This document shows positions 19,532-42,610 of a stretch of 64,000 nt of DNA, piece by piece. Made by a program: the position numbers and the translations under genes. The stretch lies in the NCBI GenBank assembly GCA_017512365.1, contig JAFWGQ010000066.1, positions 19,247 through 83,246 on the forward strand, read 5' to 3'. The number at the start of each line of letters is the position of its first letter. Position 1 is the first letter of the stretch. The notes under the pieces are model-generated. The model worked only from the letters and a program-made list of their open reading frames with translations. It made no database searches and was not told where the DNA came from. The DNA is from Mogibacterium sp. (GTDB lineage Bacteria > Bacillota > Clostridia > Peptostreptococcales > Anaerovoracaceae).

Positions 19532-20065
19532 CTATCTCTTAGTTTCTATAAGTCCGTAAGCGTTTCCCTTACGCTTGTAAACGACGCTCACATCGTTCGT
19601 GTCCATGTCGAGGAACACGAAGAAATCGTGTCCGAGCATCTCCATCTGGAGCACCGCTTCTTCTGCCACCATCGGGGACAGCTCCACCTGCTTTCTCCTT
19701 ACGATAGTCATCTCCTCTTCGTACTCGTCGTCGTCCGGTTCCGGTACGAACTCGAGCTTGAGAGCCTTGTTTTCCTTGTATCTCGCCTCGAGCTTGCCCT
19801 TGAGCTTGCTCATCTGGCTGGCGAGTTTATCTGTAGCCATGTCCACTGCGTCGTAGATGCTGTCATTCGCCATCTCTGCTCTGAACACAGCCTGTTTAGC
19901 GTTGATAGTTGCCTCGAATTTCGGCGTCTCTCTGAGTTTGGAGACTACCACGCTGGCTGTTACGTCTTCGTTGAAATACTTGTCGAGCTTGCTCAGTTTC
20001 TTTTCGATGTATGTGCTGAGCTTTTCGCTCATCGGATAGTTCTTTGATGAGATCTGTACCTTCAT
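19532..20065 (-). CDS. hpf: Ribosome hibernation promoting factor, long form
   Basis: This 177-residue protein has an N-terminal ~100 residues (VQISSKNYPMSEKLSTYIEK, IYDAVDMATDKLASQM) that bind the 30S decoding region. The C-terminal ~60 residues (VRRKQVELSPMVAEEAVLQM, GHDFFVFLDMDTNDVSVVYK) form the dimerisation domain that joins 70S particles into 100S dimers. It starts the operon with the LCP, cdaA and cdaR genes (12-base gap to the next ATG). A structured RNA candidate lies ~400 bases upstream on the same strand. Confidence 0.95.
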   Translation of the reverse strand: MKVQISSKNYPMSEKLSTYIEKKLSKLDKYFNEDVTASVVVSKLRETPKFEATINAKQAVFRAEMANDSIYDAVDMATDKLASQMSKLKGKLEARYKENKALKLEFVPEPDDDEYEEEMTIVRRKQVELSPMVAEEAVLQMEMLGHDFFVFLDMDTNDVSVVYKRKGNAYGLIETKR

Positions 20066-28247: not shown

Positions 28248-29135
28248 TTATTTTACTACGGCTGCTTTCACCCCGGACCACTTCGATACACGGACTTCGC
28301 TGCTGGACTTCGTATACGCCCGGACGCGAACGTAGTATTTCTTATTTGTCTTCAGGCCCTTGATCCTGAATGACGTCTTTTTCGCGCTGACGAACTTATT
28401 TTTTACGTCTTTCCTGAATTTCCCGTCTGTGCTGTACTGGATCTGTACCTTCCTGATCACTTTCCGTTTCTCTTTTGATATCTTCTTCCATTTGACGGCC
28501 ACCGCATTCTTTGAGGACTTTGGTTTTGATATCTTTACTGCCGGCAGACTGCTTTTCTTTTCAGAAGCAGACGCATTGGAACCCGACGGGACCGATCCAG
28601 TATCAGTTATATTTGTCTTTGGTATTTCTGCCTTTTCCTTCTCAGTATCTGTCAAACCGCCTTTTTCAGGGTCCGGCGTCTTTTTGTCCCCTTCGTCAGG
28701 CTGCGGCCCGCTGCTGAGCTGATCATCCTCATTCGTTCCGGAATTTAAGCCATCGGCAGAAGAATCGTCTATTTCGTGGTTATTATCATCATTATTATCT
28801 ATGCCACCGCCGCCTAATCCCGGATACATATTCCCCCCGCCGGAACCGAAATCTGAAAGATCCGGAACGGAACCTTCATTCCAGCCCTTGAGTTCGTGAT
28901 CTTCTCCATCACCGGTGCCGCTGACGCCGCCGCCGCCAACGGAAAGCTGCCCATTGTATTCCGAATTGCCCCAGCCTGCTTCCTGATCGCCGCTCTGTCC
29001 ATGGTTCGGAAGCGGCGGCATGTTGTTATCATCTGCGAATACCGCGAGCGTGCCGGCAAGCGTCATAACAAGCGCCATCACGAGTGACGTAAAAAGCGCC
29101 ACTGCTGTCGATACGGCACTTCTCTTTCTGATCAT
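28248..29135 (-). CDS. Secreted protein with acidic linker and C-terminal Fn3 domain
   Basis: This ~295-residue protein has a signal peptide IRKRSAVSTAVALFTSLVMA cut near VFA-DDN. Residues ~40-190 are low-complexity and rich in Gly, Asp, Asn and Ser, with no fold. The C-terminal ~95 residues (VRKVQIQYSTDGKFRKD, KNKKYYVRVRAYTKS, VSKWSGVKAAVVK) are an Fn3 module close to that of the 31.3-kb gene. The start is uncertain: ATG 29135 follows AAAAGGAAA, while ATG 29153 has a G run too close to it. Transcription probably begins at the shared LytTR-like promoter upstream. Confidence 0.75.
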   Translation of the reverse strand: MIRKRSAVSTAVALFTSLVMALVMTLAGTLAVFADDNNMPPLPNHGQSGDQEAGWGNSEYNGQLSVGGGGVSGTGDGEDHELKGWNEGSVPDLSDFGSGGGNMYPGLGGGGIDNNDDNNHEIDDSSADGLNSGTNEDDQLSSGPQPDEGDKKTPDPEKGGLTDTEKEKAEIPKTNITDTGSVPSGSNASASEKKSSLPAVKISKPKSSKNAVAVKWKKISKEKRKVIRKVQIQYSTDGKFRKDVKNKFVSAKKTSFRIKGLKTNKKYYVRVRAYTKSSSEVRVSKWSGVKAAVVK

Positions 29136-29202
29136 TTTCCTTTTCACTTCCATACCCCCCTGCTTTTCTCTCTCAGGCCCGGCCTGTACTATCCATATCA
29201 GC

Positions 29203-29270
29203 ATTCTACTTTGGTTACACATAAGTTACAATGCGATATGCATGAACGTTGGAAAAAGCGCACGAAAGTG
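29203..29270 (-). promoter_or_regulatory. LytTR-like direct-repeat site and promoter, copy 1
   Basis: On the minus strand a 32-bp site runs from 29270 to 29239. It starts CACTTTCGTGCG and ends AACGTTCATGCA, with the two TTC(A/G)TGC units 20 bp apart. Thirty bases later comes TAGAAT (29208-29203), a -10-like box. It has the same layout as copies 2 and 3. The proximal 9-mer AACGTTCAT fits the LytTR consensus [TA][AC][CA]GTTN[AG][TG]. Confidence 0.65.
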
Positions 29271-29290
29271 GGATTGTTGCGGGGGGCAGA

Positions 29291-29602
29291 TCAGAATATG
29301 TTCTCTCTTCCTGTGACCAGCGCGTCAGGGAAGTTGACCTCTGCATATCTGATCATCCTGTCCCTTCCGTACACGTGCGTGGAATGGATATTTATGTGAG
29401 ACGGCCTCATGCCGTGCTTTTTCATATAGCGAAGGGCGTCCATGCCCGTGAAAAAGCTGTCTCTCCCCAGATAGTAGTCGAGGTCGACCAGTTCCAGGCA
29501 GTCTCTGTATCTGTCGAGCAGCGCAAGAAAGTCCGCGTAATCATCAGCGGATTTAAAGCCTTCTGCGGGAGCTGTTCTCCGGTCATCAAGGTACAGCTTC
29601 AA
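29291..29602 (-). CDS. Receiver-like small protein (cyclic-phosphate processing receiver type)
   Basis: This 103-residue protein opens KLYLDDRRTAPAEGF, with paired acidic residues as in a receiver phosphorylation site. ELVDLDYYLGRDSFFTGMDA has a second Asp in the phospho-acceptor position. It resembles the short cyclic-phosphate processing receiver domain family. The start is TTG at 29602, six bases after GAGGAGG and overlapping the hipA stop (TTGA), so it is translated from the hipBA message. Function in the HipA module is unknown; it may modify or regulate the kinase. Confidence 0.65.
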   Translation of the reverse strand: MKLYLDDRRTAPAEGFKSADDYADFLALLDRYRDCLELVDLDYYLGRDSFFTGMDALRYMKKHGMRPSHINIHSTHVYGRDRMIRYAEVNFPDALVTGRENIF

Positions 29603-30879
29603 TGCATCCTCCTCATGTCAGCAATGCTGAGTATTCGATTCCTGATATCAGGCGCCTGAATGAATCCTCCGTCGCAGAGTTCTTCCGCAGAAGTATTCAG
29701 CGCATCCGGCAGCTTTTCAGTCATTTGATCGATCAGGTCCAGCGCGTATCCGGTTCCCATGCCGATATCCTTCGCGGCCCTGCTCCATGCAGTGCGATCG
29801 ATATCGTCGATCGAATACTTACCGCCTATATTGAATGCCATGTTATGGGTCGAGGAAGGATATACAGCCGTTGATATCAGATCATATGCCGGTGCCAGTC
29901 TTACGGTTCTGAGGTCCGTCGAATAGATGAGGGAAATGTTTTTAATATGGTTGTCAGTATTGCCGATCAGCCAGTTGAAGACTGTCGTCTCCCATAATTT
30001 CCTGATATCTGTGATAGGATCCGAAGAGTGGTTTCTGATCAGTTCGGCGATCCTGCTAAAATGCTCGTCTCCCGGCTCTTCATACTTCGAGATCGCCGGG
30101 ATCCCCATGGCCTGAGCCAGATCTTCCTGATGCTTTCGATATGGCCGCGCCAGTCCGTCAACAAGCCGGTCGCTCATCTGATCGCGATCGTAACGCTTAC
30201 TTGCAAAAAGTATCTCGCCATCACGCCCGCTCCCCAGATCAATGATAAAGCTGTGCGGCACTTCTATACCGAGTTTTGATGCAGTCATCAGGACCATCTG
30301 TTCATTGGTTATTATATTATCCAGGCGGATATGGCTCTGCTTGATTATGTGAGTGCTCGGTGCATCTCCGACAGGCAGATACCATTCGTCATTCTGCCCG
30401 TCATAATACAGTCCCACCTTGCCGCTTGCACCTGTCAAAGAGAGATGCGACTCCACCACCATCTGTGACGATTCGACCGCTCCTTCAGCAGCCAGCTCTT
30501 TGATCCTGCAGGGCTCTATCTTACGGTAAGCTGCTTCTGCCGGTTCATCAGCACCTTCTGTTATCCTCACAGCACCCAGGCATTCGCTCCCCAGCCCGGC
30601 AAGCAGCGACAAATAATCATCCGCTCCGGATCGCAGCCATTTTGCCACGCTGCGTCTGGTAAACCCCTCCGGCAGTAAGCCATCGAAGAAAGCCGCTGTC
30701 TCCGCCGGTGAGAACGGCTCTTCGCGAAGCGGCAGACTGATCGAGACCGGCTGAGCATGATCAGATGCCAGATATGCATCCGCATATGCAAATCCGGCAT
30801 CCCTCGCATCATTTCCTGTGATCTGTCCGATGCTGACTTCAGATCCGGACAGCTCGATCGATACGTCTAAGCGTCTCAT
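29599..30879 (-). CDS. hipA: HipA-family serine/threonine kinase toxin
   Basis: This 426-residue protein has the N-terminal HipA domain (FFDGLLPEGFTRRSVAKWL), the SLTGASGKVGLY regulatory serine loop, KRYDRD, RKHQEDLAQAMG and the catalytic NWLIGNTDNHIKNISL (Asp and Asn present). DLISTAVYP lies in the metal-binding region. HipA kinases phosphorylate targets such as GltX and cause dormancy. hipB is upstream and overlaps by ATGA; the receiver-like gene follows with TTGA overlap. Confidence 0.92.
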   Translation of the reverse strand: MRRLDVSIELSGSEVSIGQITGNDARDAGFAYADAYLASDHAQPVSISLPLREEPFSPAETAAFFDGLLPEGFTRRSVAKWLRSGADDYLSLLAGLGSECLGAVRITEGADEPAEAAYRKIEPCRIKELAAEGAVESSQMVVESHLSLTGASGKVGLYYDGQNDEWYLPVGDAPSTHIIKQSHIRLDNIITNEQMVLMTASKLGIEVPHSFIIDLGSGRDGEILFASKRYDRDQMSDRLVDGLARPYRKHQEDLAQAMGIPAISKYEEPGDEHFSRIAELIRNHSSDPITDIRKLWETTVFNWLIGNTDNHIKNISLIYSTDLRTVRLAPAYDLISTAVYPSSTHNMAFNIGGKYSIDDIDRTAWSRAAKDIGMGTGYALDLIDQMTEKLPDALNTSAEELCDGGFIQAPDIRNRILSIADMRRMH

Positions 30880-31097
30880 TTGTCCGTACCTCTGGGTCCT
30901 ATCACCACATCCAGGCCCAGCATTCCGGCTATGAAAAGAGACTTCTCAAGTTCTGCGGTCTTCTTTCCCCTTTCCAGATCGGAAATAAAGCTTATGCTCA
31001 GCCCGGTGAACGTCGCCAGATCCTGTTGAGTATAGCCCAGTTCCTTTCTGCGCTCTCTTATCGCTTTGCCAAATTGGATGCTGTTTCCCGCTTTCAT
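30876..31097 (-). CDS. hipB: HipB-like XRE antitoxin and repressor
   Basis: This 73-residue protein has a Cro/C1 HTH, GKAIRERRKELGYTQQDLAT then GLSISFISDLERGKKTAE. I start at ATG 31097, with GGGAG upstream; the longer frame would run through the promoter and operators. It is the first gene of hipB-hipA-receiver. Three copies of a GCCGTACGGC palindrome lie immediately upstream, one inside the promoter, which implies autorepression. Confidence 0.9.
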   Translation of the reverse strand: MKAGNSIQFGKAIRERRKELGYTQQDLATFTGLSISFISDLERGKKTAELEKSLFIAGMLGLDVVIGPRGTDK

Positions 31098-31113
31098 ATC
31101 TGCTCCCTGAATA

Positions 31114-31209
31114 AGCCGTACGGCTAATTTATCTGAATTATCGAAAAATAACGCCGTACGGCTAATTAAATGCAAATGCATTATAATTTGCGCCGTACGG
31201 CTTTGTCAA
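31114..31209 (-). promoter_or_regulatory. hipBA promoter with three palindromic operators
   Basis: GCCGTACGGC occurs at 31115-31124, 31153-31162 and 31192-31201, spaced 38 and 39 bp apart. On the minus strand TTGACA (31209-31204), an 18-bp spacer holding the third operator and TATAAT (31185-31180) make a near-consensus promoter. HipB dimers on all three sites could loop or wrap the DNA. Confidence 0.88.
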
Positions 31210-31257
31210 GACAGGTCCAATGTATTGCTTCAGTTTACCCGATAACACCAGATTCGT

Positions 31258-32955
31258 TTATTTTATCTTCACCTTCTTCACAGCAGACCACTTAGATATA
31301 TGTACTGTCTTTCCGGATTTCGTGTAAGCCCTGACACGTACATAATAGGTCTTCTTTGACTTCAGTCCCTTTATCTTAAGAGACGTCTTTTTGGCATTAG
31401 CATACTTTGTCTTTACCCCTTTATTGAATTTTTTATACGGACTGTACTGGATCTGGACCTTCTTTATCTTCTTAAGGTTCTTTTTTGCCACTTTCTTCCA
31501 TTTGATCGTTGCGGACTTCTTTGCAGCTGCAGGCTTGGCGATCTTCACGGCTTTCAGAGAAGGCGCGAGTTTCTTGACAGTTCTTGTCTGCCTGTCTCCA
31601 CACAACGAGCAGGTTTTCGTCTCTGTCCCGGCAGCCAGCTCAGTCGCCGCTTTCGTTGTCGTCCAGGCACCATAATCATGACCCTTACTGGCGATCGTTT
31701 CTGTGGTCGTCTCTCCACACGCTGTACAGACGAGAGTCCTGATTCCGGTTTCAGTACATGTTGGCTGCTTTGTTATCTCACCCTCGACCCATAAATGCAC
31801 ATGGTTGAGTGGCATGCGAACATATTTAAAGTCTGATAAAGATGACGTCTTATTCCAGGCAGATGCGCCTGTTGCATCTGCCGCATCATTGACCCATGCA
31901 CCACGAGCCTTTGTAGCATCATCAATATTAGCAGCATCTACTGCGGCACCATCTGCAAGTGCTTCAAGTATCGAGTTTTCACTGACAGAGAGTCCGTCTG
32001 CTTTCACTCCCTCGGCATTTACACTATCCCCATATGATACAGCTTTCAGGACCGCCCCGTTTTTCAGTTCTATATTATTATTTGTCGCAGCTACACCATA
32101 AGCGATTTTCCGCGGCTCCGTCTTCACATTGCTCGTGATCTTTGCCCCGTCAATGGTCAGATCGCCAGAACTTATCCCATAGCATTTCTTATCAGTATCA
32201 ATGTTTATTTCTAAGCTGCCCGGGCCGGAAACATTAAGCTTTTCGGCATCAATTCCGATTGCAAATTCAGCCTCGGGATTTCCATCCTGTATTATATTAT
32301 TAGTGCCGATCAGCTTGAGATTCAGCTCCTCATAAGTTTTGACAGCTGTCCAGTCAACAGGACCTGTAGATTCTAGTTTCAGTGTTGCTCCGTTAAGAGT
32401 CAGCGTTTTAGTTTTACTATCGTATGCTACTGTATTGTCTCCTTTGACATCTGCGGCATTAGAATCATTCAATTGCGTTCCTTCGACCCAGATATCATAT
32501 ACTTCGGGAAGGATGATGTTGATATCGTCACAGTATGCTAGGTTTTTTGAATTTAAGTCTTCCTTAATCCCTGCAAAAACGCTTTTTTCGACATTTTGTG
32601 CCGTCGACCATGTTCCGTTATAATCTGCCTTCTCATATCTATAGTACTCAGAGAATCCGTCATAATCATGTCTGCATACATCATATTGACCACTTCTGCC
32701 CAAATCATATGCATCATCATCATATATTTTAAACTCATTTATTACTCTAGCCTTGTCAAGCGCCGTCATGACATTGTTAAACGCCGCAAGCTGATCACCG
32801 CTGAGTCTTACTCTCCCCTTGGTCAAGTCAAGGGTTATAGTCCCTACATTCGTCCCTTCCGCATATGCCTCCTGCATACCGATCACAGGTATGAAGCTGA
32901 GTGTTATCAGCAATGCCAGGCATATCGAAGATATCTTTTTCATCATGTTATTCAT
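31258..32955 (-). CDS. Large secreted protein with repeats and C-terminal Fn3
   Basis: This 565-residue protein has a signal peptide KKISSICLALLITLSFIPVI cut after AYA. Residues ~150-370 contain beta-helix-like LTLNGATLKL, LTIDGAKITSNVK and IELKNGAVLKA strands, as in surface adhesins. Two Cys-containing segments (CTETGIRTLVCTACGETT, KTCSLCGDRQT) form small zinc-ribbon-like linkers. The C-terminal ~95 residues are Fn3 (KVQIQYSPYKKFNK, YYVRVRAYTKSGKTVHISKW). It has a standard-looking promoter, not the LytTR-like one. It is probably exported and displayed; ligand unknown. Confidence 0.78.
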   Translation of the reverse strand: MNNMMKKISSICLALLITLSFIPVIGMQEAYAEGTNVGTITLDLTKGRVRLSGDQLAAFNNVMTALDKARVINEFKIYDDDAYDLGRSGQYDVCRHDYDGFSEYYRYEKADYNGTWSTAQNVEKSVFAGIKEDLNSKNLAYCDDINIILPEVYDIWVEGTQLNDSNAADVKGDNTVAYDSKTKTLTLNGATLKLESTGPVDWTAVKTYEELNLKLIGTNNIIQDGNPEAEFAIGIDAEKLNVSGPGSLEINIDTDKKCYGISSGDLTIDGAKITSNVKTEPRKIAYGVAATNNNIELKNGAVLKAVSYGDSVNAEGVKADGLSVSENSILEALADGAAVDAANIDDATKARGAWVNDAADATGASAWNKTSSLSDFKYVRMPLNHVHLWVEGEITKQPTCTETGIRTLVCTACGETTTETIASKGHDYGAWTTTKAATELAAGTETKTCSLCGDRQTRTVKKLAPSLKAVKIAKPAAAKKSATIKWKKVAKKNLKKIKKVQIQYSPYKKFNKGVKTKYANAKKTSLKIKGLKSKKTYYVRVRAYTKSGKTVHISKWSAVKKVKIK

Positions 32956-32993
32956 CTGGCCCTCCCTTATATTAGAATTTTAAGCATGCCACT

Positions 32994-33022
32994 ATTTTAT
33001 TACTCAGTTCGACAGATTTCAA
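32994..33022 (-). promoter_or_regulatory. Promoter for the 31.3-33.0 kb secreted protein
   Basis: On the minus strand TTGAAA (33022-33017), a 17-bp spacer and TAAAAT (32999-32994) lie ~40 bases upstream of the ATG. No LytTR-like site is present. Confidence 0.55.
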
Positions 33023-33060
33023 TAAATTGCTTATCATATCCCTGCCTCCGCATCTGCCGG

Positions 33061-33142
33061 GAGGTCCAACCGGGATGTGCCGGCAGCTTTGAGCAATGAC
33101 GCGATCTCATCGATTATTGGGTCTGTCGTACAGATGTCGTCA
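33061..33142 (-). pseudogene. comF 3'-end fragment
   Basis: On the minus strand this reads DDICTTDPIIDEIASLLKAA then GTSRLDLP, matching intact ComF (DDIYTTGSTIDEIASLLKAA, GASRVDFL). The DNA at 33079-33142 aligns with 38779-38842 at most positions. No start, no upstream half and no ribosome site remain, so it is a duplicated relic. It lies just upstream of a secreted-protein gene, as intact comF does. Confidence 0.85.
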
Positions 33143-33149
33143 GATGAAG

Positions 33150-33188
33150 AAACAACAGCCACCCGATCGTTGTTTTCGAGTGGCTGTC
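33150..33188 (-). terminator. Terminator after the ART-like/secreted fusion gene
   Basis: CAGCCAC and GTGGCTG at about 33158-33189 form a 7-bp stem. On the minus strand a TTGTTTC stretch follows. Confidence 0.6.
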
Positions 33189-33198
33189 ATATTTCTGA

Positions 33199-35892
33199 TT
33201 ATTTCGGCACTGTGACCTTGATGCTCTTTGATACGCCGTTGTGTGCGTATACATATATCCTGCAGCTGCCCTTGCCTTTGGCGGTGATCCTGCCGCTCTT
33301 CGATACTGTCGCTACCTTCTTGTCGGATGACAGATATCTGAGTTTCGATGTGTGGCTCTTTGGCATCAGCTTTTTCTTTTTGTTGACCTTGTTGACCTTC
33401 GCTTTGACCCTGAAGGTCCTGCCCTTCTTCAGGGACAACTTGTTTTTCTTGATGTTCCTGATCCTCACGCTCCCGGCGTTGGTGTATTTCCCGGTTCCGT
33501 TTCCGGTGTAGGCATGCACCGTCGGGCTTTTCTTTACATAGGACTTTTTGCCGTTCCTGTAGACGTATGCTTTGACATAGGCCTTGTATGCCGTTCCTTT
33601 CTCAAGACCCGATCTGGTCCAACTGAAAGTTTTGTTGCCTTTGACGGTCCTGACCTTCCTGCACTTTGCTTTCTTCCCGCCGCGGTTGCACTGTGCAAAG
33701 AAAATGTCGTAGCCTGCTGCTCCCCGGATCCTGTTCCAGCTGATGGTCAAGCTTTTCCTGCCCTTTGCCGTCATCCTGGCCATCGGAGTGCCGCTGACCT
33801 TTGCCGTCGTTCCGGCCGTTGGTGCATCGCCCTCTGCCGGCGCCGCTTCCTTTCTGACTTCGGCGCTGAGACAGACTCCTCCTCCTTTTGGAACAACGAG
33901 ATAGAAGTTGCCGTTTTCGTCTTTTGAAAGAGCTGTCTTTTTCTCTTTTCCGTTGTATGCAGCAACGATCTGATAACCTTCGTCAGCCTTCAGTATCACC
34001 TTATCGCCTTCATGCGCCACATCAAATCCGTGGGATCTGGCGAGGGCCCTGCCGTCTGCATCAAGCGCTCTGATCGTGCCGCCCGCCGCAGGCTGTTCTG
34101 TCCTGATGATGTAGTTTATCTTCTTTTCGAAAGCTCTGTCTGCGCCGGCCGGAGCAACGCCGTCAGGAAGGTTGCCTGAATCTTCCGTATAATACTCCGC
34201 CACGTTTCCATTTTCGTTTACTCTTATTTTCCAGGCAGTAAGATTTAACCTGTGCATTGAAGCAACACGATTTTCATCGTTTTCAGGTAAAAGAAGTTTT
34301 GCGTGGTGCTTATAAACCAATACACCGACGTTATCCGCCTGTATTTCATTTTCAACCAGGATGTCTGTTGCTGTCAGGTGCGAATAATCAGATTCAATAA
34401 ACATAATGCCTTTGTCATCAGAAATTAAATTTCCAAGCACATGTACGAATTGCTTTCCCTCCGGCAGGGAAGTATTCCCGTGATTTTCGCTGTGTGTCAT
34501 TCCGGCTTTAACAGCAGCCGAACGATTTTTCTCTGATTGCGCTTTAATGTCTCCCTGAATGTCAGCTGTCAATTTGCCGGATCCATCAGCCACTGTTAAA
34601 CCTGTGCTTAAGGGCATGCTGACAGGCATGCTTTGAACGTCTATATCCCCTTTACTGACTGCTGTTATACCGCCTTTGCCATCCGAAAACGTAAGATCTC
34701 CGTCTTCATCTTCTGCCGAAACAGCGGCCCCCTGAACAAATGATCCTTCGGAGAGAATGCCTCCTTTGATCATGATACTGGCTGGCTGATTATTTGACAT
34801 CGCCGCAACACCAAATGCGTAGTTTCCTGCGCTTGCCGAAATATTGCCGCCAACCGTAACATTGCCGTCGTCCGTATAGATTCCCTGAGCAACGCCATCA
34901 GAACTTAATGCCGTAACATTGCCTCCGACTTTGACCTCGGCATGTTCTGATTTTTTAGCGGCGGTAACAGAAACACCTTGTGCATATTTGGCTTTTCCTG
35001 ATGTCGAAACATTATCTCTTACATCCACATATGCGCTGCCGTTCGCATCAGCACGCACGGTGACACCGGCAAGGACTTGTCCACCGCCCTCAAACACTGC
35101 AGAAACGCTTCCGCTTACTTTCCCGCTTGCGGTCTTCCCGTTCGCACCATGGGCGACGATGTGGTAATTTTCATAGTGTTCAAATTTGTCGTCGATCTCG
35201 GCATGTTCCCCCGGGTTGATCTCCACTCTGTGTGACCCTTCTATCACTGTCGACCTGGATCCTGGCCGGAAATTGCTGATGCGTTCTCCTTCCGTCTGCA
35301 TGATCTGAGACATTGAACCGCTGCGCAAACTGTCAAGCGCCGCATCCCCGGGCAGGCTGTCCGCAAAGGCAGAGTGCGGGCTCAGGAGGACTCCGGTCAA
35401 CAGACCTGCTGCGGCGATTTTGCGAAGCCTGCGTCCGTCCATGCTGCAGACCCTTCTCCCGTCGGATCTTTTTCTGTTTGCCGCTTCCTTGCTGGCCACC
35501 TGCCGGCTCGTCATTTCCAGGACCCGCGCTTTTTTGAAATCGTAGGTTCCTCTGTGCGCAATGGCCAGGCGATAGATGGAATCCTCCGGCAGATCGTCAG
35601 CGTCAAACCTGTAGAAGCGATCGTCATCCCGGTAAGGGATCTTCAAAATGCAATAGTCCTTGCGGTCGCATTTCTCCCTGTACCGCAGGACGCCGTCCAG
35701 ATCTAAGTACGGCCTGCCTTCGGTCATGATCTCATTGTTGAACGCCTTCACGGAGTCCGCCAGACTTCCCGTAAAGAACACGAAGTCATCCCGGGATCTG
35801 ATGGACTTATCCTTCAGTATGCTTTCCACATTGCTCTTCAATGTGTAGTGATACAGATATCTGGTTTTCGGACTTATTTTCCTTGCTCTCAT
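33199..35892 (-). CDS. Fusion of ART-like N-domain to a secreted repeat protein with Fn3/Big_2 end
   Basis: This is an 897-residue protein. Residues ~10-130 (RYLYHYTLKSNVESILKDKS, DDFVFFTGSLADSVKAFN) resemble the YHYT/ILKDG entrance of ADP-ribosyltransferase-like domains. A basic stretch and a full signal-peptide-like segment follow (RRLRKIAAAGLLTGVLLSPH, ending SAFADS, ~153-180). Next comes a ~400-residue beta-rich repeat region (VGGNVTALSS, VTVGGNISASAG), then Fn3 and a Big_2-like C-terminus. An internal ATG at 35442 would give a normally secreted form. I start at ATG 35892 (site GGGGGGAG). The order cytosolic enzyme, signal, exported repeats is odd. It uses the LytTR-like promoter. Confidence 0.7.
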   Translation of the reverse strand: MRARKISPKTRYLYHYTLKSNVESILKDKSIRSRDDFVFFTGSLADSVKAFNNEIMTEGRPYLDLDGVLRYREKCDRKDYCILKIPYRDDDRFYRFDADDLPEDSIYRLAIAHRGTYDFKKARVLEMTSRQVASKEAANRKRSDGRRVCSMDGRRLRKIAAAGLLTGVLLSPHSAFADSLPGDAALDSLRSGSMSQIMQTEGERISNFRPGSRSTVIEGSHRVEINPGEHAEIDDKFEHYENYHIVAHGANGKTASGKVSGSVSAVFEGGGQVLAGVTVRADANGSAYVDVRDNVSTSGKAKYAQGVSVTAAKKSEHAEVKVGGNVTALSSDGVAQGIYTDDGNVTVGGNISASAGNYAFGVAAMSNNQPASIMIKGGILSEGSFVQGAAVSAEDEDGDLTFSDGKGGITAVSKGDIDVQSMPVSMPLSTGLTVADGSGKLTADIQGDIKAQSEKNRSAAVKAGMTHSENHGNTSLPEGKQFVHVLGNLISDDKGIMFIESDYSHLTATDILVENEIQADNVGVLVYKHHAKLLLPENDENRVASMHRLNLTAWKIRVNENGNVAEYYTEDSGNLPDGVAPAGADRAFEKKINYIIRTEQPAAGGTIRALDADGRALARSHGFDVAHEGDKVILKADEGYQIVAAYNGKEKKTALSKDENGNFYLVVPKGGGVCLSAEVRKEAAPAEGDAPTAGTTAKVSGTPMARMTAKGRKSLTISWNRIRGAAGYDIFFAQCNRGGKKAKCRKVRTVKGNKTFSWTRSGLEKGTAYKAYVKAYVYRNGKKSYVKKSPTVHAYTGNGTGKYTNAGSVRIRNIKKNKLSLKKGRTFRVKAKVNKVNKKKKLMPKSHTSKLRYLSSDKKVATVSKSGRITAKGKGSCRIYVYAHNGVSKSIKVTVPK

Positions 35893-35950
35893 AGTACGCT
35901 CCCCCCTTCTGATCATTATCGAGAGACTAATGCTGATCTGTTATGGGCAT

Positions 35951-36018
35951 AGTCTATCAAAACAGATACCGGAGCAGAACCGATTCTGCATGAACGTTGT
36001 TTAAAGCGCATGAAAGTG
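35951..36018 (-). promoter_or_regulatory. LytTR-like direct-repeat site and promoter, copy 2
   Basis: The 32-bp site (36018 to 35987 on the minus strand) starts CACTTTCATGCG and ends AACGTTCATGCA, with TTCATGC units 20 bp apart. Exactly 30 bases later lies TAGACT (35956-35951), preceded by TGA as in an extended -10. The ATG follows about 59 bases further on. Confidence 0.7.
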
Positions 36019-36036
36019 GGACTGCACCCGATGAAA

Positions 36037-36058
36037 GCGCCCCACCGAAGTGAGGCGC
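36037..36058 (-). terminator. Terminator after the pilin-domain protein gene
   Basis: GCGCCCCAC (36037-36045) pairs with GTGAGGCGC (36050-36058). On the minus strand the loop is TTCG and TTTCATC follows. Confidence 0.75.
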
Positions 36059-36089
36059 CGGATCAAAACATCCTATTGATAGTTCTTTA

Positions 36090-38477
36090 TCAAGGCACTG
36101 TTACCCTGATGCTCTTTGATACGCCGTTGTGGGCAAAGACATATATCGTACATTTACCCGTTCCTTTGGCGGTGATCCTGCCGCTCTTCGATACTGTCGC
36201 TACCTTCCTGTCGGATGACAGATATCTGAGTTTCGATGTGTGGCTCTTTGGCATCAGCTTTTTCTTTTTGTTGACCTTGTTGACCTTCGCTTTGATCCTG
36301 AAGGTCTTTCCCTTCTTCAGGGAAAGTTTTCCCTTCCTGACGTTCCTGAGAGTCACGCTTTTGGCATTGGTGAAGTTCCCGGTTCCGTTTCCTGTGTAGG
36401 AGTGCACCGCGGGGCTCTTTCTGATGTAGGTCTTCTTTCCGGCCTTCATGGTGTAGGCCTTGACGTAGAATTTGTACGCCGTGCCTTTTTTCAGTCCTGA
36501 TTTTTTCCATACGAAGGTCTTGTTGCCCTTGATGGTCTTCACCTTCCTGTAGGCAAACTTCTTGCCGTGGCGGTTGCACTTTGCGAGGAAAATGTCATAG
36601 CCGGCGACTCCTTTGACCTTGTTCCACCTGATGGTCATTTTTGTTTTTCCCGCTTTCACCTTTGAGAGCAGTATACCGCCGGTCTTCCCGGGAGTCGGCG
36701 TTGGATCAGACTTGTTTCCTCTTTCGTATTTATTCACAAATTCGCAGATCTTAACTTCATTTTTACCATCCAGGATCGTCTGCTTTGTACAAAGCATGTC
36801 GTCGGGATCATCCGGATCGGGTTCAACGACATATTTAACGGTGTAAACTTTATCGTCGTACGTATATCCGGCAGCGCTTTCGTTCAGCTCACGGACATTA
36901 TAGATGTATTCGCCCGGCTTCTTAAACGTAAGGCCGGGAATTTCAGAATTCGCTTCCGTTTGTCCTTTTTCCACCTTTAGCTTAACTGTTGCAGCAGTAC
37001 TCTTACCGGACTGTCCCGAAGGAAAACCCGTGCCTTCCATCACACACGTGAATTCCTGATCTTTATCGGGAACATCGCCTGTAATGATCTTACGGACCGG
37101 AATCGGTTCCGATGCAGCGCCCGGGAGTTTCCACGTCACGCTGATGTTCTTGTTTTCATTCACAGTATCTTCGCCAAAAGTGTACTTATAATAATCGATT
37201 TCAGATGAGTCTGCCTTGTACACGATGCCCGTTGGATATACCCTGGTACCGTTGACCGTTAATGTATCCAGTATATATCCGGGATCCGGCGTCATTTTGT
37301 AAGTTACTTCTTTTCCATGAGGAACAGCGTAGGTATACGGGGTATTAACATTGCCGCCGTCTAATTTTCTGAATTTATTTTTTTCTGCATCCGTGTCATG
37401 GATCTGACCGTCCGTCCATAATACGATCTCCCCGTTGTCTCCGGAAAATGAAGTAAAGCTATGGGTCAGATCATAGTTCATGAAGTGTATTTCGGATGGT
37501 TGGAAATCCGGGCCTGAACTTGCCCATGCTCTTGTAATATATCCATTATTTTTTCTGTCATCTGATCGTCCTCCCGCCCTTACGGCAATCGCCAGGCCGA
37601 AATCGTACGGATCAGTGGAAGGAACGGCAGCCTTGCTGTTTACCATAAATCGATGTTCATAACCGCCGGAGGTTCTGTTCCAGCCGCCACCGGACGGATT
37701 ATCTGTAATATTGGTTGATTGAGGTAAATAAATATCGGATTCGCTGTTGATGCCATACAAAGGCTCAACAGATTCAGAATAATTCTGGTTACCGTAATCA
37801 TTCACGATATTTGAAGAACTGTTTTTAATATTTATATCACTTGCAGTAAAGAAAAAGCTTTCCTCCTCATCGCTTATGCGGCCCCCCTTGCCTGCTCTGA
37901 ATTTGATTTCCGATCTGATGGCAAAATGTTTGTCTGAATTTTTCACAGAGAGAGGAGTCAGTGACAGAGGTTTTCCGTTACTGTGATCTCCGGCATATGC
38001 GATGCGAATTTTTTCATTATCATATTCTTCGGGCTTGCCTTTCTCTCTTATGACATTTATTTCATCAAAAATAACTTCCAGATTTTCCCTTGTTCCATCG
38101 CGCATGATCGCGGCGTCTTTATACACAAAAGTAAAATTTCCCAACCTCTTGTAATCCGCATTGACATCAACGCCTTCCGCATACGCGTATCCGTCACTAA
38201 ATGTAAAGACTATGCTGGTTCCGCTGTTAGGCAGTTGATCCAGTTTCCCGGGTTCGGTAAACACCAGATTGTCTTTGTGTATTTTGCTTCTGTCGATGGT
38301 GATCGTTGTGATCGGTGCGTCTTTGGCAAAATTACTTACATCGCCGTTTTTTATCACGCTCGGGTCAGTGTTCTCACGAGCATAGGCCGTATCGCTCATC
38401 ACAGGTATCATCGTAAATACCACAGCCAGCGACATCAGCATGGCCAGCATTTTGCTTTTCATCTTCTTTTTCATCAT
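36090..38477 (-). CDS. Secreted protein with pilin isopeptide-type domain, Fn3 and Big_2 end
   Basis: This 795-residue protein has a signal peptide MLAMLMSLAVVFTMIPVM cut after AYA. Residues ~40-440 are a large unassigned ectodomain. Residues ~450-575 match a Spy0128/FctA-like domain (DQEFTCVMEGTGFPSG, KPGEYIYNVRELNE), which forms a self-made Lys-Asn isopeptide bond in pilins. The C-terminal ~200 residues are Fn3 plus Big_2 (GTAYKFYVKAY, KKLMPKSHTSKLRYLSSD), nearly the same as in the neighbouring fusion. No LPXTG motif is seen. A GAGGAGG site precedes the ATG. It uses the LytTR-like promoter copy 3. Confidence 0.78.
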   Translation of the reverse strand: MMKKKMKSKMLAMLMSLAVVFTMIPVMSDTAYARENTDPSVIKNGDVSNFAKDAPITTITIDRSKIHKDNLVFTEPGKLDQLPNSGTSIVFTFSDGYAYAEGVDVNADYKRLGNFTFVYKDAAIMRDGTRENLEVIFDEINVIREKGKPEEYDNEKIRIAYAGDHSNGKPLSLTPLSVKNSDKHFAIRSEIKFRAGKGGRISDEEESFFFTASDINIKNSSSNIVNDYGNQNYSESVEPLYGINSESDIYLPQSTNITDNPSGGGWNRTSGGYEHRFMVNSKAAVPSTDPYDFGLAIAVRAGGRSDDRKNNGYITRAWASSGPDFQPSEIHFMNYDLTHSFTSFSGDNGEIVLWTDGQIHDTDAEKNKFRKLDGGNVNTPYTYAVPHGKEVTYKMTPDPGYILDTLTVNGTRVYPTGIVYKADSSEIDYYKYTFGEDTVNENKNISVTWKLPGAASEPIPVRKIITGDVPDKDQEFTCVMEGTGFPSGQSGKSTAATVKLKVEKGQTEANSEIPGLTFKKPGEYIYNVRELNESAAGYTYDDKVYTVKYVVEPDPDDPDDMLCTKQTILDGKNEVKICEFVNKYERGNKSDPTPTPGKTGGILLSKVKAGKTKMTIRWNKVKGVAGYDIFLAKCNRHGKKFAYRKVKTIKGNKTFVWKKSGLKKGTAYKFYVKAYTMKAGKKTYIRKSPAVHSYTGNGTGNFTNAKSVTLRNVRKGKLSLKKGKTFRIKAKVNKVNKKKKLMPKSHTSKLRYLSSDRKVATVSKSGRITAKGTGKCTIYVFAHNGVSKSIRVTVP

Positions 38478-38646
38478 CGTGATCCTCCTCGTGATATGCC
38501 ATCATGCGAGTATGCTCTGTAACGATTTCACTTATTGGTTGTGATTCTTACGGGTTTTACTCACTTAAAAACGCCGGAAACACAATGCGGCAGATCGGTG
38601 TCACATTACATTTCCGGCGGGCATCTGCTCGTCATTGATTATGTGC

Positions 38647-38714
38647 ATTCTATCATGCGATCCTCTGAATTGATATCGGATCTGCATGAACGTTGTCTAA
38701 AGCGCATGAAAGTG
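38647..38714 (-). promoter_or_regulatory. LytTR-like direct-repeat site and promoter, copy 3
   Basis: The 32-bp site (38714 to 38683 on the minus strand) differs from copy 2 at one position. Thirty bases later comes TAGAAT (38652-38647), again preceded by TGA. It lies between the comF stop and the pilin-domain gene, ~170 bases from that ATG. Confidence 0.7.
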
Positions 38715-38721
38715 TGTTTCA

Positions 38722-40940: not shown

Positions 40941-41081
40941 ATGTCTACAAGACAAACAAAAATCGGGGAAATAATGTCGGATTTCGGGAAAAACGTCATA
41001 AAAAAAGCAGCCCCGCGAACGAGGCTGCCTTGCGATTATTTCACCTTCATCTTGAAAGTTTTGCTCAAGATACCTGTATAA
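40941..41081 (+). CDS. Possible small ORF, 46 residues, truncated-looking
   Basis: It begins MSTRQTKIGEIMSDFGKNVI behind an excellent site (GAGGTGAT). The frame then runs through the terminator of the opposing gene (41009-41032) and into its coding end. The first ~22 residues look protein-like; the rest is antisense. It may be the surviving N-terminus of a truncated gene. Confidence 0.3.
   Translation: MSTRQTKIGEIMSDFGKNVIKKAAPRTRLPCDYFTFILKVLLKIPV
41009..41032 (-). terminator. Terminator after the three-Fn3 protein gene
   Basis: On the minus strand GCAGCCTCG, the loop TTCG and CGGGGCTGC are followed by TTTTTTTATG. Confidence 0.88.
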
Positions 41082-42502
41082 GTAACACCACCGTGTTCTT
41101 TTATAGGTCTAACCCTGACGTAGTATCTCTTACCGCTCTTGAGGCCGCTGAATTTATACGACCTGCTGCCAGCGCCGAGAGTCACTGTCTGGGCGTTCTT
41201 CATCTTCTTGTTGCCGGCGATCTTCACCTGATAGCCGGTCGCGCCTTTGTCCTTCTTCCAGCTTACTTTGACAGCGCCCTTGCCGGCTTTAGCTTTCGTC
41301 TTAACCTTGTTGAAGTAGCGGTAGTTAGTGTCCGACCATACAGTTCCATTAGAGGAGACTGCTGCGACCTTGTATTCATACAGGCCCTTCATCTTATGCT
41401 TCTTGACTACATACTTGGTCTTCTTTGTGTTCTTGTAGGTCCACTTATTACTTCCGACCTTGCGGTATGCAACCGTGTACTTCTTGGCTCCGCTTACCTG
41501 TCCCCACTTCATGGTCCACTTCATCGTCATGGCTCTTGCGGATGTGGTTGCAACCGTCGTCACCTTAGGTGCAGCGGGCTTAGCCTCATCCTTCTTCGGT
41601 GTGAGTTTGGGTATAGCCTCTGTCTTTGTAGCGTCACAGTTCTTGCACTTGAATGTCTTTACGCCTTCAGTTGTTTCAGTCGGCTCCTTCGTTACTGTAC
41701 CGGCATCCCAGTCGTGGTCGGCTGTGGCGGTGAACGAGAATTCTATATACTCTCCATAGACAACACTGTACTCCAGGCCTGTGCCGCCCTCGACCGTTAG
41801 AACGAAATCGTTCGGTACGTAATACTTCCAAAAATCACCACTACTACGCTGAAATTCCAGTACTCCTTTGAGGGTGTACTTCTTGCCGCCCTCGAAGGTT
41901 TCCACCGAATCATTGTTTTCATCTTTCCAATGGGTCTCATAATCAAGCAGTGTGAAAGCATCGGGAATCGTCGGCATAGCCTCGCTTGCCTGCTTGCCGC
42001 AGGTCGGGCTGCCATTGTCCAGTTCGAGCTTCTCGTAGGGCTTCTTCCAGAGAAGATAGTAGGTCATCCCGTCGCTGACATTAGTCGTCTCGTGCGCGTC
42101 ATTGTAGGTGTCGTCGACGTAATCCTTAAATGTCGCATAGTCATCGATCGCTTTATAGGCGACATCGATAAGCTCTTCGCCGTTGTGCCTGTAGCCGCTG
42201 TCGCTGATTAAAGAACCGACAACGTTGTGTATGCCAATACGCAAAGCGGCTTCGACGTTGTTCGGGTGAACACCCTTGAGGGTGATGATGTTGCCCTCGA
42301 TGGTCGCGTCCTGCAGAAGGAACTCGGTTTTGATTTGGTTCAGCACATCGCTTGTGAATAAATCTGCGTGACCGGCGCCCACATCGATATAGACATCAAT
42401 GCCACTTGCCGCATCTGCCTTCTGCGCCACGCCCGGCAGCGCTCCTGCAACCATGACCAGAGCCAGTAATAGGCTTAGTGCCAAATTAGTTAACTTCTTC
42501 AT
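41036..42502 (-). CDS. Secreted protein with tandem Fn3 domains
   Basis: This 488-residue protein has a signal peptide KKLTNLALSLLLALVMVAGA cut after ADA. Residues ~30-290 form a unique ectodomain with an X-Cys-Lys-Asn-Cys segment (KTFKCKNCDATKTEAI). Residues ~300-488 are two Fn3-like domains (WGQVSGAKKYTVAYRKVG and VSWKKDKGATGYQVKIAG). I start at ATG 42502 behind AGGAGG. It is related in style to the other surface proteins, but has no LytTR-like site. Confidence 0.78.
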   Translation of the reverse strand: MKKLTNLALSLLLALVMVAGALPGVAQKADAASGIDVYIDVGAGHADLFTSDVLNQIKTEFLLQDATIEGNIITLKGVHPNNVEAALRIGIHNVVGSLISDSGYRHNGEELIDVAYKAIDDYATFKDYVDDTYNDAHETTNVSDGMTYYLLWKKPYEKLELDNGSPTCGKQASEAMPTIPDAFTLLDYETHWKDENNDSVETFEGGKKYTLKGVLEFQRSSGDFWKYYVPNDFVLTVEGGTGLEYSVVYGEYIEFSFTATADHDWDAGTVTKEPTETTEGVKTFKCKNCDATKTEAIPKLTPKKDEAKPAAPKVTTVATTSARAMTMKWTMKWGQVSGAKKYTVAYRKVGSNKWTYKNTKKTKYVVKKHKMKGLYEYKVAAVSSNGTVWSDTNYRYFNKVKTKAKAGKGAVKVSWKKDKGATGYQVKIAGNKKMKNAQTVTLGAGSRSYKFSGLKSGKRYYVRVRPIKEHGGVTYTGILSKTFKMKVK

Positions 42503-42610
42503 ACATACCTCCTTTTCTAACCTTCTACATTGTAACATAAATACTTCTCAAATAGTTAGAGATGGAATCATCAAAAAAATAGGCCCGCTCAAATGAGCGA
42601 GCCGTGTGCG

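Follow-up and report, generated by a model that had tools for sequence, protein, structure and literature searches.

The window analyzed here is a stretch of 64,000 nucleotides of contig JAFWGQ010000066.1 (G000:C40) in a Mogibacterium sp. assembly, GCA_017512365.1 (2.46 Mb in 74 contigs, 92.9% complete); NCBI taxonomy places Mogibacterium in the Anaerovoracaceae. On its minus strand lie three genes for surface proteins, each preceded by a tandem-repeat site and a predicted promoter (Table 1). An earlier note on this DNA had proposed that the three sites mark a small regulon under a LytTR-type response regulator, possibly a quorum-sensing one. Our results strongly suggest that these sites serve a small two-component regulon as its operator; the protein that binds the repeats is most likely a receiver-LytTR response regulator encoded on another contig (C1) of the same genome.

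Repeat sites and promoters of surface-protein genes

The layout described in the earlier note was borne out. All three sites are on the minus strand (as 27-mers, 29266-29240, 36014-35988, and 38710-38684), both TTCRTGC units are 20 bp apart at each of them, and 30 bases separate the 32-bp form of the site from a TAGAMT hexamer in every case. The 27-bp pattern, with up to 3 mismatches allowed, matched the window exactly three times and had no match in 100 shuffles; at the same threshold the assembly as a whole held no fourth copy, and a reversed-pattern control gave none. The likeness among the three promoter regions is confined to 32 to 35 bp, and the other Fn3 genes nearby (31258-32955 and 41036-42538) have no proximal half-site upstream at up to 2 mismatches. 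Two looser signals were rejected: the AgrA-type 9-mer WMMGTTNRK, whose likeness to the AgrA/ComE consensus had been offered in support, has 24 matches in the window where 37 would be expected and is not diagnostic alone, and a two-unit pattern loosened to 3 mismatches, with 20 matches for an expected 22, does no better than chance.

Table 1. Sites, predicted promoter elements, target genes, and leader RNA in the window
Feature	Positions	Strand	Remarks
Site 1	29240..29271	-	CCACTTTCGTGCGCTTTTTCCAACGTTCATGC; tandem repeats of 20-bp period
Promoter 1, -35 hexamer	29226..29231	-	TTGTAA
Promoter 1, -10 hexamer	29203..29208	-	TAGAAT; 17-nt spacer
Gene 1	28248..29153	-	Secreted Fn3 protein, 301 aa; ATG behind AGGGGGG ribosome-binding site; start inferred
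Site 2	35988..36019	-	CCACTTTCATGCGCTTTAAACAACGTTCATGC
Promoter 2, -35 position	35974..35979	-	TTCTGC, weak
Promoter 2, -10 hexamer	35951..35956	-	TAGACT
Gene 2	33199..35892	-	897 aa; C-terminal Big_2 and Fn3 (below cut-off); start inferred
Site 3	38684..38715	-	ACACTTTCATGCGCTTTAGACAACGTTCATGC
Promoter 3, -35 position	38670..38675	-	TATCAA, weak
Promoter 3, -10 hexamer	38647..38652	-	TAGAAT
Leader RNA of gene 3	38567..38640	-	Terminator-like; 5' arm GCAGAT; hairpin 38619-38572; conserved apex GTGACAC..ATCTGCCGC; U-run
Gene 3	36090..38477	-	Secreted, 795 aa; FctA/pilin isopeptide domain, Big_2, Fn3 (below cut-off)

Promoter geometry was compared in an ungapped alignment of 23 copies, which represent 22 promoters, one row being the upstream pair of a site in genome G020 that has three repeat units; the alignment leaves out a match in Rubritalea, one copy at the end of a contig, and a variant in G260. 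The usual form of the site is (C/A)(A/C)ACTTTCRTGC-N8-CAACGTTCRTGC. Counted from its last base, the -35 element occupies positions 9 to 14 and the -10 element positions 32 to 37, with a spacer of 17 nt; both assignments rest on position in the alignment, and the promoters are predicted. T occupies the first -35 position (9) in 22 of 23 copies, with TTG there in 9, and the -10 element has A at position 33 in 21, A at position 36 in 18, and T at position 37 in 21. Its hexamers include TAGAAT, TAGACT, TAAAAT, TAGTAT, TAGGAT, TAAACT, and GATAAT, among others, which rules out TAGAMT as a special, regulator-specific box. Because site, weak -35, and -10 stand at fixed distances in the 23 copies, TAGAMT is best read as an ordinary sigma-70 -10 box.

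Taken as 9-mers, the repeats have 11 nt between them and end 10 nt ahead of the -35 position. This arrangement just upstream of the -35 element agrees with the LytTR layout described in two papers: published LytTR sites consist of two repeats of 9 to 11 nt with spacers of 11 to 13 nt and have no common consensus (PMC4847170), and the repeats of LytTR regulatory systems are spaced by 12 bp in most cases, with a preference for a place 10 bp ahead of the -35 element (PMC6193735).

The site is present in 6 of the 47 genomes of the genus, the window genome counted, and a stricter pattern found it in a further genus of the family too (3 of 296 genomes). When 84,980 species were scanned, each represented by one genome, 16 stretches were returned, which by record name belong to 10 genomes, eight of them titled Mogibacterium, Clostridiales, or Firmicutes, one a Bacteroidales-titled bin, and one a Rubritalea, whose match (L031) is probably due to chance and was set aside. 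The site module recurs in Mogibacterium-like metagenome-assembled genomes.

Signal peptides and membrane segments were judged by eye. By this measure, 18 of the 21 distinct promoters with a readable gene precede a secreted or membrane protein; the others precede peptides beside rpsB in G039 and G016 or lie at locus L032, and two sites at contig ends were unreadable for their target gene. At L032 (RUG14262), a terminator-like hairpin ends 135 nt past the site and before any gene, with a cupin-like gene next, so the promoter module may drive a small RNA there. In the window, the start codons at 29153, 35892, and 38477 were assigned from ribosome-binding sites, and those of genes 1 and 2 differ from the mechanical starts of their open reading frames. 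The earlier note had described the three targets as different surface proteins, but the difference is incomplete: genes 2 and 3 have their last ~207 residues in common (70% identity; in DNA, 80.5% identity over 544 bp), with no further significant match between them. The N-terminal ~150 residues of gene 2 belong to no confident family, and the hydrophobic segment by which gene 2 was counted among the 18 follows near residue 165; in Pfam, the stretch at 35449-35892 (minus strand) matched an ADP-ribosyltransferase-type domain below threshold only (E = 0.07).

Between the surface-protein genes lie helix-turn-helix, HipA-like, and cREC genes (29291-31181, minus strand). Elsewhere in the window is a raiA RNA (RF03072; 20454-20616, minus strand), a known element, upstream of a ribosome-hibernation-type gene (19532-20065); it was the only match in the window at Rfam gathering scores.

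The candidate regulator and its kinase

A search with a wider site pattern showed that sites in G020 and G087 adjoin weakly scoring LytTR genes. These encode response regulators with receiver and LytTR domains, and behind each of them comes a GHKL kinase in which several membrane segments could be made out by eye. The window genome likewise holds the kind of regulator for which the earlier note had recommended a search: a receiver-LytTR response regulator at G000:C1:132229-132981, not on the window's contig, with a GHKL kinase gene directly downstream (C1:130916-132238) that carries a HATPase_c_5 domain. In the regulator family, Pfam (E ≤ 0.01) detected the receiver domain in 13 of 13 members and the LytTR domain in 11. 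Alignment of the family with four LytTR proteins of the genus by hhalign gave an E value of 5e-7 (probability 92%), and the family profile matches ComE (4cbv) across both domains; a search of solved structures with a single regulator sequence gave receiver-domain matches among the best 60.

Regulator and site occur together. With the G020 protein as query in 47 genomes (G004, G005, G006, and G011 of the genus left out), close orthologs (59 to 62% identity) were found in G000, G016, G029, G039, and G087, in addition to G020 itself, which makes 6 of the 7 genomes with a site and none of the 40 without one (Fisher p = 6.5e-7 without kinship correction); the best match among the 40 had an E value of 8.6e-24 and 26% identity. 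When the G000 protein was searched against the 296 family genomes, close orthologs (63 to 64%) other than those of G020 and G087 appeared only in G297 and G260, and the next relatives in that sample were 42 to 47% identical.

Regulator and site are also neighbors. In G020, G029, G087, and G297 the divergent promoter region of the regulator contains the site, and that of G260 contains a variant of it, so that the adjacency extends over three genera. For scoring, we used a position weight matrix trained on 22 sites (19 of 20 wider-pattern places and 3 loci of the species scan, the overlapping G020 unit being omitted). As its training set held the others, only the G260 site is an independent detection of a regulator-adjacent site by the matrix; it scored 32.5 bits against a highest score of 5.0 in 5 shuffles, keeps the -35/-10 spacing, and stands before a secreted-protein gene.

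The computed observations thus cover the site and how widely it is conserved, the layout of the promoters, the occurrence of regulator and site together and side by side, and the kind of target genes. The small LytTR regulon of surface proteins that the earlier note had envisaged draws good support from the co-occurrence and from the sites found in the divergent promoter region of the regulator in other species. Binding of the repeats by the C1 regulator, and its control of the genes behind them, are putative and follow from co-occurrence and adjacency. Each direct repeat would be occupied by one regulator subunit, the two lying about two helical turns apart, and the regulator would recruit sigma-70 RNA polymerase from a position directly ahead of a promoter whose -35 element is poor. 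We infer activation rather than repression, as well as phosphorylation of the regulator and a signal to the membrane kinase; since the targets are mostly secreted or surface-protein genes, this signal would act as the switch for a small and changeable group of surface proteins.

Several points weigh against the assignment to the C1 regulator. Its own LytTR domain scores 17.2 bits against a Pfam cut-off of 22.6 (E = 0.0059); the protein is 59% identical to that of G020, whose LytTR domain passes Pfam. The co-occurrence of site and regulator lacks phylogenetic correction. A scan with the matrix found no site at the promoter of the window genome's regulator, and the regulators of G016 and G039 have a half-site only. 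At distant regulators (42 to 47% identity, genera g16 and g47) the site was found in 0 of 7 loci scanned; the pairing therefore holds for close orthologs only. Finally, among the 11 genomes with a site (those 10 from the species scan plus G000), no close ortholog was detected in four, namely, G041 (= RUG13917), RUG14262, RUG13111 (the Bacteroidales-titled bin), and Rubritalea. The G041 assembly is 87% complete in 270 contigs, and the locus at which it has the site is orthologous to that of window promoter 1.

Such exceptions leave some room, in our view not much, for the sites being read by another LytTR protein of the genome. A Pfam search of the window genome found two LytTR genes, encoding the C46 protein and the solo C19 protein, neither with a recognizable receiver, and G041, with a site and no detected regulator ortholog, has two LytTR genes, one of them nearly identical to that of the C46 protein. 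However, LytTR genes are present in 15 of 16 site-less genomes searched and yet not in site-bearing G039; as a PF04397 search of G039 finds no LytTR gene, the weak-scoring ortholog is the only LytTR-type candidate detected there. No copy of the site was seen upstream of the C46 gene, and the matrix found none in the C46 and C19 stretches fetched. The C46 protein (L004) is encoded beside a membrane protein of 155 residues, DUF3021-like by reading rather than by domain search, in the layout of a LytTR Regulatory System and divergently from a secreted-protein gene.

If the C1 regulator and its kinase do govern the sites, the signal would be unlikely to be a secreted peptide pheromone read by the kinase, as in Agr or Com systems. 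The quorum-sensing suggestion of the earlier note would fit the GHKL-type kinase adjoining a LytTR response regulator, one site each in G039 and G016 that precedes a hydrophobic peptide beside rpsB, and an ATP-binding cassette (ABC) transporter gene two genes from the regulator in G029, but it is left without support: the kinase has only a GHKL-type domain common to many systems, and AgrB, the peptide-processing protein of Agr-type systems, was found in 0 of 15 genomes, in a search whose sensitivity is not proven, since the control genomes gave one match, below the cut-off. No pheromone gene was recognizable beside the regulator-kinase pair in six genomes among open reading frames of at least 40 residues, a limit at which short pheromone precursors would be missed. 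An ABC-transporter signature was seen in G029 only, of the six stretches fetched; peptide exporters were not searched genome-wide. The hydrophobic peptides beside rpsB (28 and 32 residues, at L009 in G039 and L011 in G016) share a LVGLLITIFVAATAFA core just downstream of the site; they are membrane-like and may each be a small membrane protein or a signal peptide.

Exchange of proteins behind fixed promoters and a leader RNA

At two loci orthologous to window promoters (L027, 2248-7998; L023, 4139-6193), another surface protein stands behind the same promoter. On the cREC side, the window and G041 are 72.5% identical in DNA over 476 bp spanning cREC and the promoter, and the G041 protein behind that promoter, of at least 1,917 residues, shows no significant similarity to that of gene 1 (best E = 0.27). 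In G041 the cREC gene has kept its place next to the promoter, whereas its other neighbors differ. On the comF-like side, the upstream proteins of the window and G029 are 51% identical, and the DNA of site and leader shows 80% identity along 207 bp. The G029 protein matches gene 3 only over 38 residues at the signal peptide (39%) and over the last ~200 residues (48%).

A promoter that stays while the genes downstream are exchanged at two loci could also be expected if the repeats were copies of a mobile or recombinational element rather than an operator, but the spacing of the site to -35 and -10 is fixed in 23 copies, the similarity of the three window copies stops after 32 to 35 bp, and the site tracks a DNA-binding protein, which makes such an origin very improbable.

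The third promoter of the window is followed by a leader RNA (Table 1) with a nearly invariant apex, GTGACA...CTGCC, in its relatives. The window hairpin folds with a z score of -3.2, and 2 of 200 shuffles were as good. A first model of the leader matched 7 of 296 family genomes, three of them only weakly (E = 0.0015 to 0.009). A second matched 8 of 393 genomes of the order, all in the same family, six of which had supplied training sequences; by eye, G019 looks genuine and G186 does not among its two new weak matches. Ten of 15 leader matches precede a secreted-like gene (the leader loci listed are the window, L013-L016, L024, L119, L122, L124, L125, and L172), and two are unjudgeable, L024 at a contig end and L129 because of an insert. 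The other three do not: the L127 leader precedes an AMP-ligase-like gene, the L123 leader lies between the end of a surface-protein gene, whose terminator it could be, and an antitoxin-like gene, while L173 corresponds to the G186 match that did not look genuine. The leader is not tied to the regulator, because G031 and G294 have it with the proximal half-site only, and G031 is without a close regulator ortholog.

Pairing between the 5' arm and the loop reached p < 0.05 singly in 2 of 12 sequences. Summed over seven chosen representatives, of which L172 was picked after its pairing had been seen, it was reached by 1 of 3,000 shuffles. Alignment-based folding gave little covariation (1 of 27 pairs and 2 of 14 pairs). 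The leader had no credible match in Rfam: 12 loci at E ≤ 1 gave one unrelated weak microRNA score, and an S15-leader score, weak in one relative (23.8 versus 39.5 bits), was not repeated for the window leader.

Taken together, the conserved promoters and the changing proteins raise the tentative possibility of a fixed "expression slot," in which surface proteins would be exchanged by recombination between conserved ends (promoter and signal peptide on one side, Fn3-Big_2 tail on the other) behind a LytTR-controlled promoter, with a new terminator-like leader RNA, in one gene type, as a second, RNA-level switch ahead of surface-protein genes of the family. We hold this to be the less probable for the three leader matches that do not stand before a secreted-protein gene.

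Comparison with known systems and biological meaning

VirR is a regulator of the LytTR kind, and the VirR/VirS repeats differ in sequence from the TTCRTGC repeats found here. In kind, the module adds one more to the LytTR two-component regulons and can be compared with VirR/VirS of Clostridium perfringens; less expected are the leader RNA and the exchange of proteins while their promoters stay fixed. As described in PMC2838878, VirR/VirS likewise combines a response regulator and a membrane kinase with two direct-repeat boxes just upstream of the -35 element and a small regulon of secreted products, a regulon that varies between strains, and VirR targets include regulatory RNAs; PMC4847170 cites VirR in a LytTR context. 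Unlike in VirR/VirS, the targets here are surface and adhesin-like proteins, encoded on another contig than the regulator.

With AgrA of Staphylococcus and ComE of Streptococcus, the candidate regulator shares the receiver-LytTR architecture and, putatively, binding to tandem repeats, whereas the failure to find AgrB in the 15 genomes, the lack of a recognized pheromone gene in the operon, and the TTCRTGC core with its 20-bp period set it apart. The HdrRM and BrsRM systems of Streptococcus mutans, according to PMC6193735, activate from direct repeats 4 to 11 bp, typically 10 bp, upstream of the -35 element, spaced mostly by 12 and at times by 11 or 13 bp. Their regulators have no receiver and a membrane inhibitor as partner, in contrast to the receiver and kinase here; the C1 regulator is accordingly not of the LytTR Regulatory System type, in which a receiver-less regulator stands beside a membrane inhibitor.

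Our search of the open-access literature, with most subscription journals outside its scope, turned up no report of a regulon of this kind among the gut relatives of Mogibacterium. Our results assign an operator, a regulator, and a target set to each other in these bacteria and yield a specific, testable prediction of how they switch large surface proteins. Promoters were seen to stay in place while the proteins behind them changed, and the leader RNA is a separate lead. If the expression slot is real, it would give these bacteria a regulated, rapidly changing surface coat.

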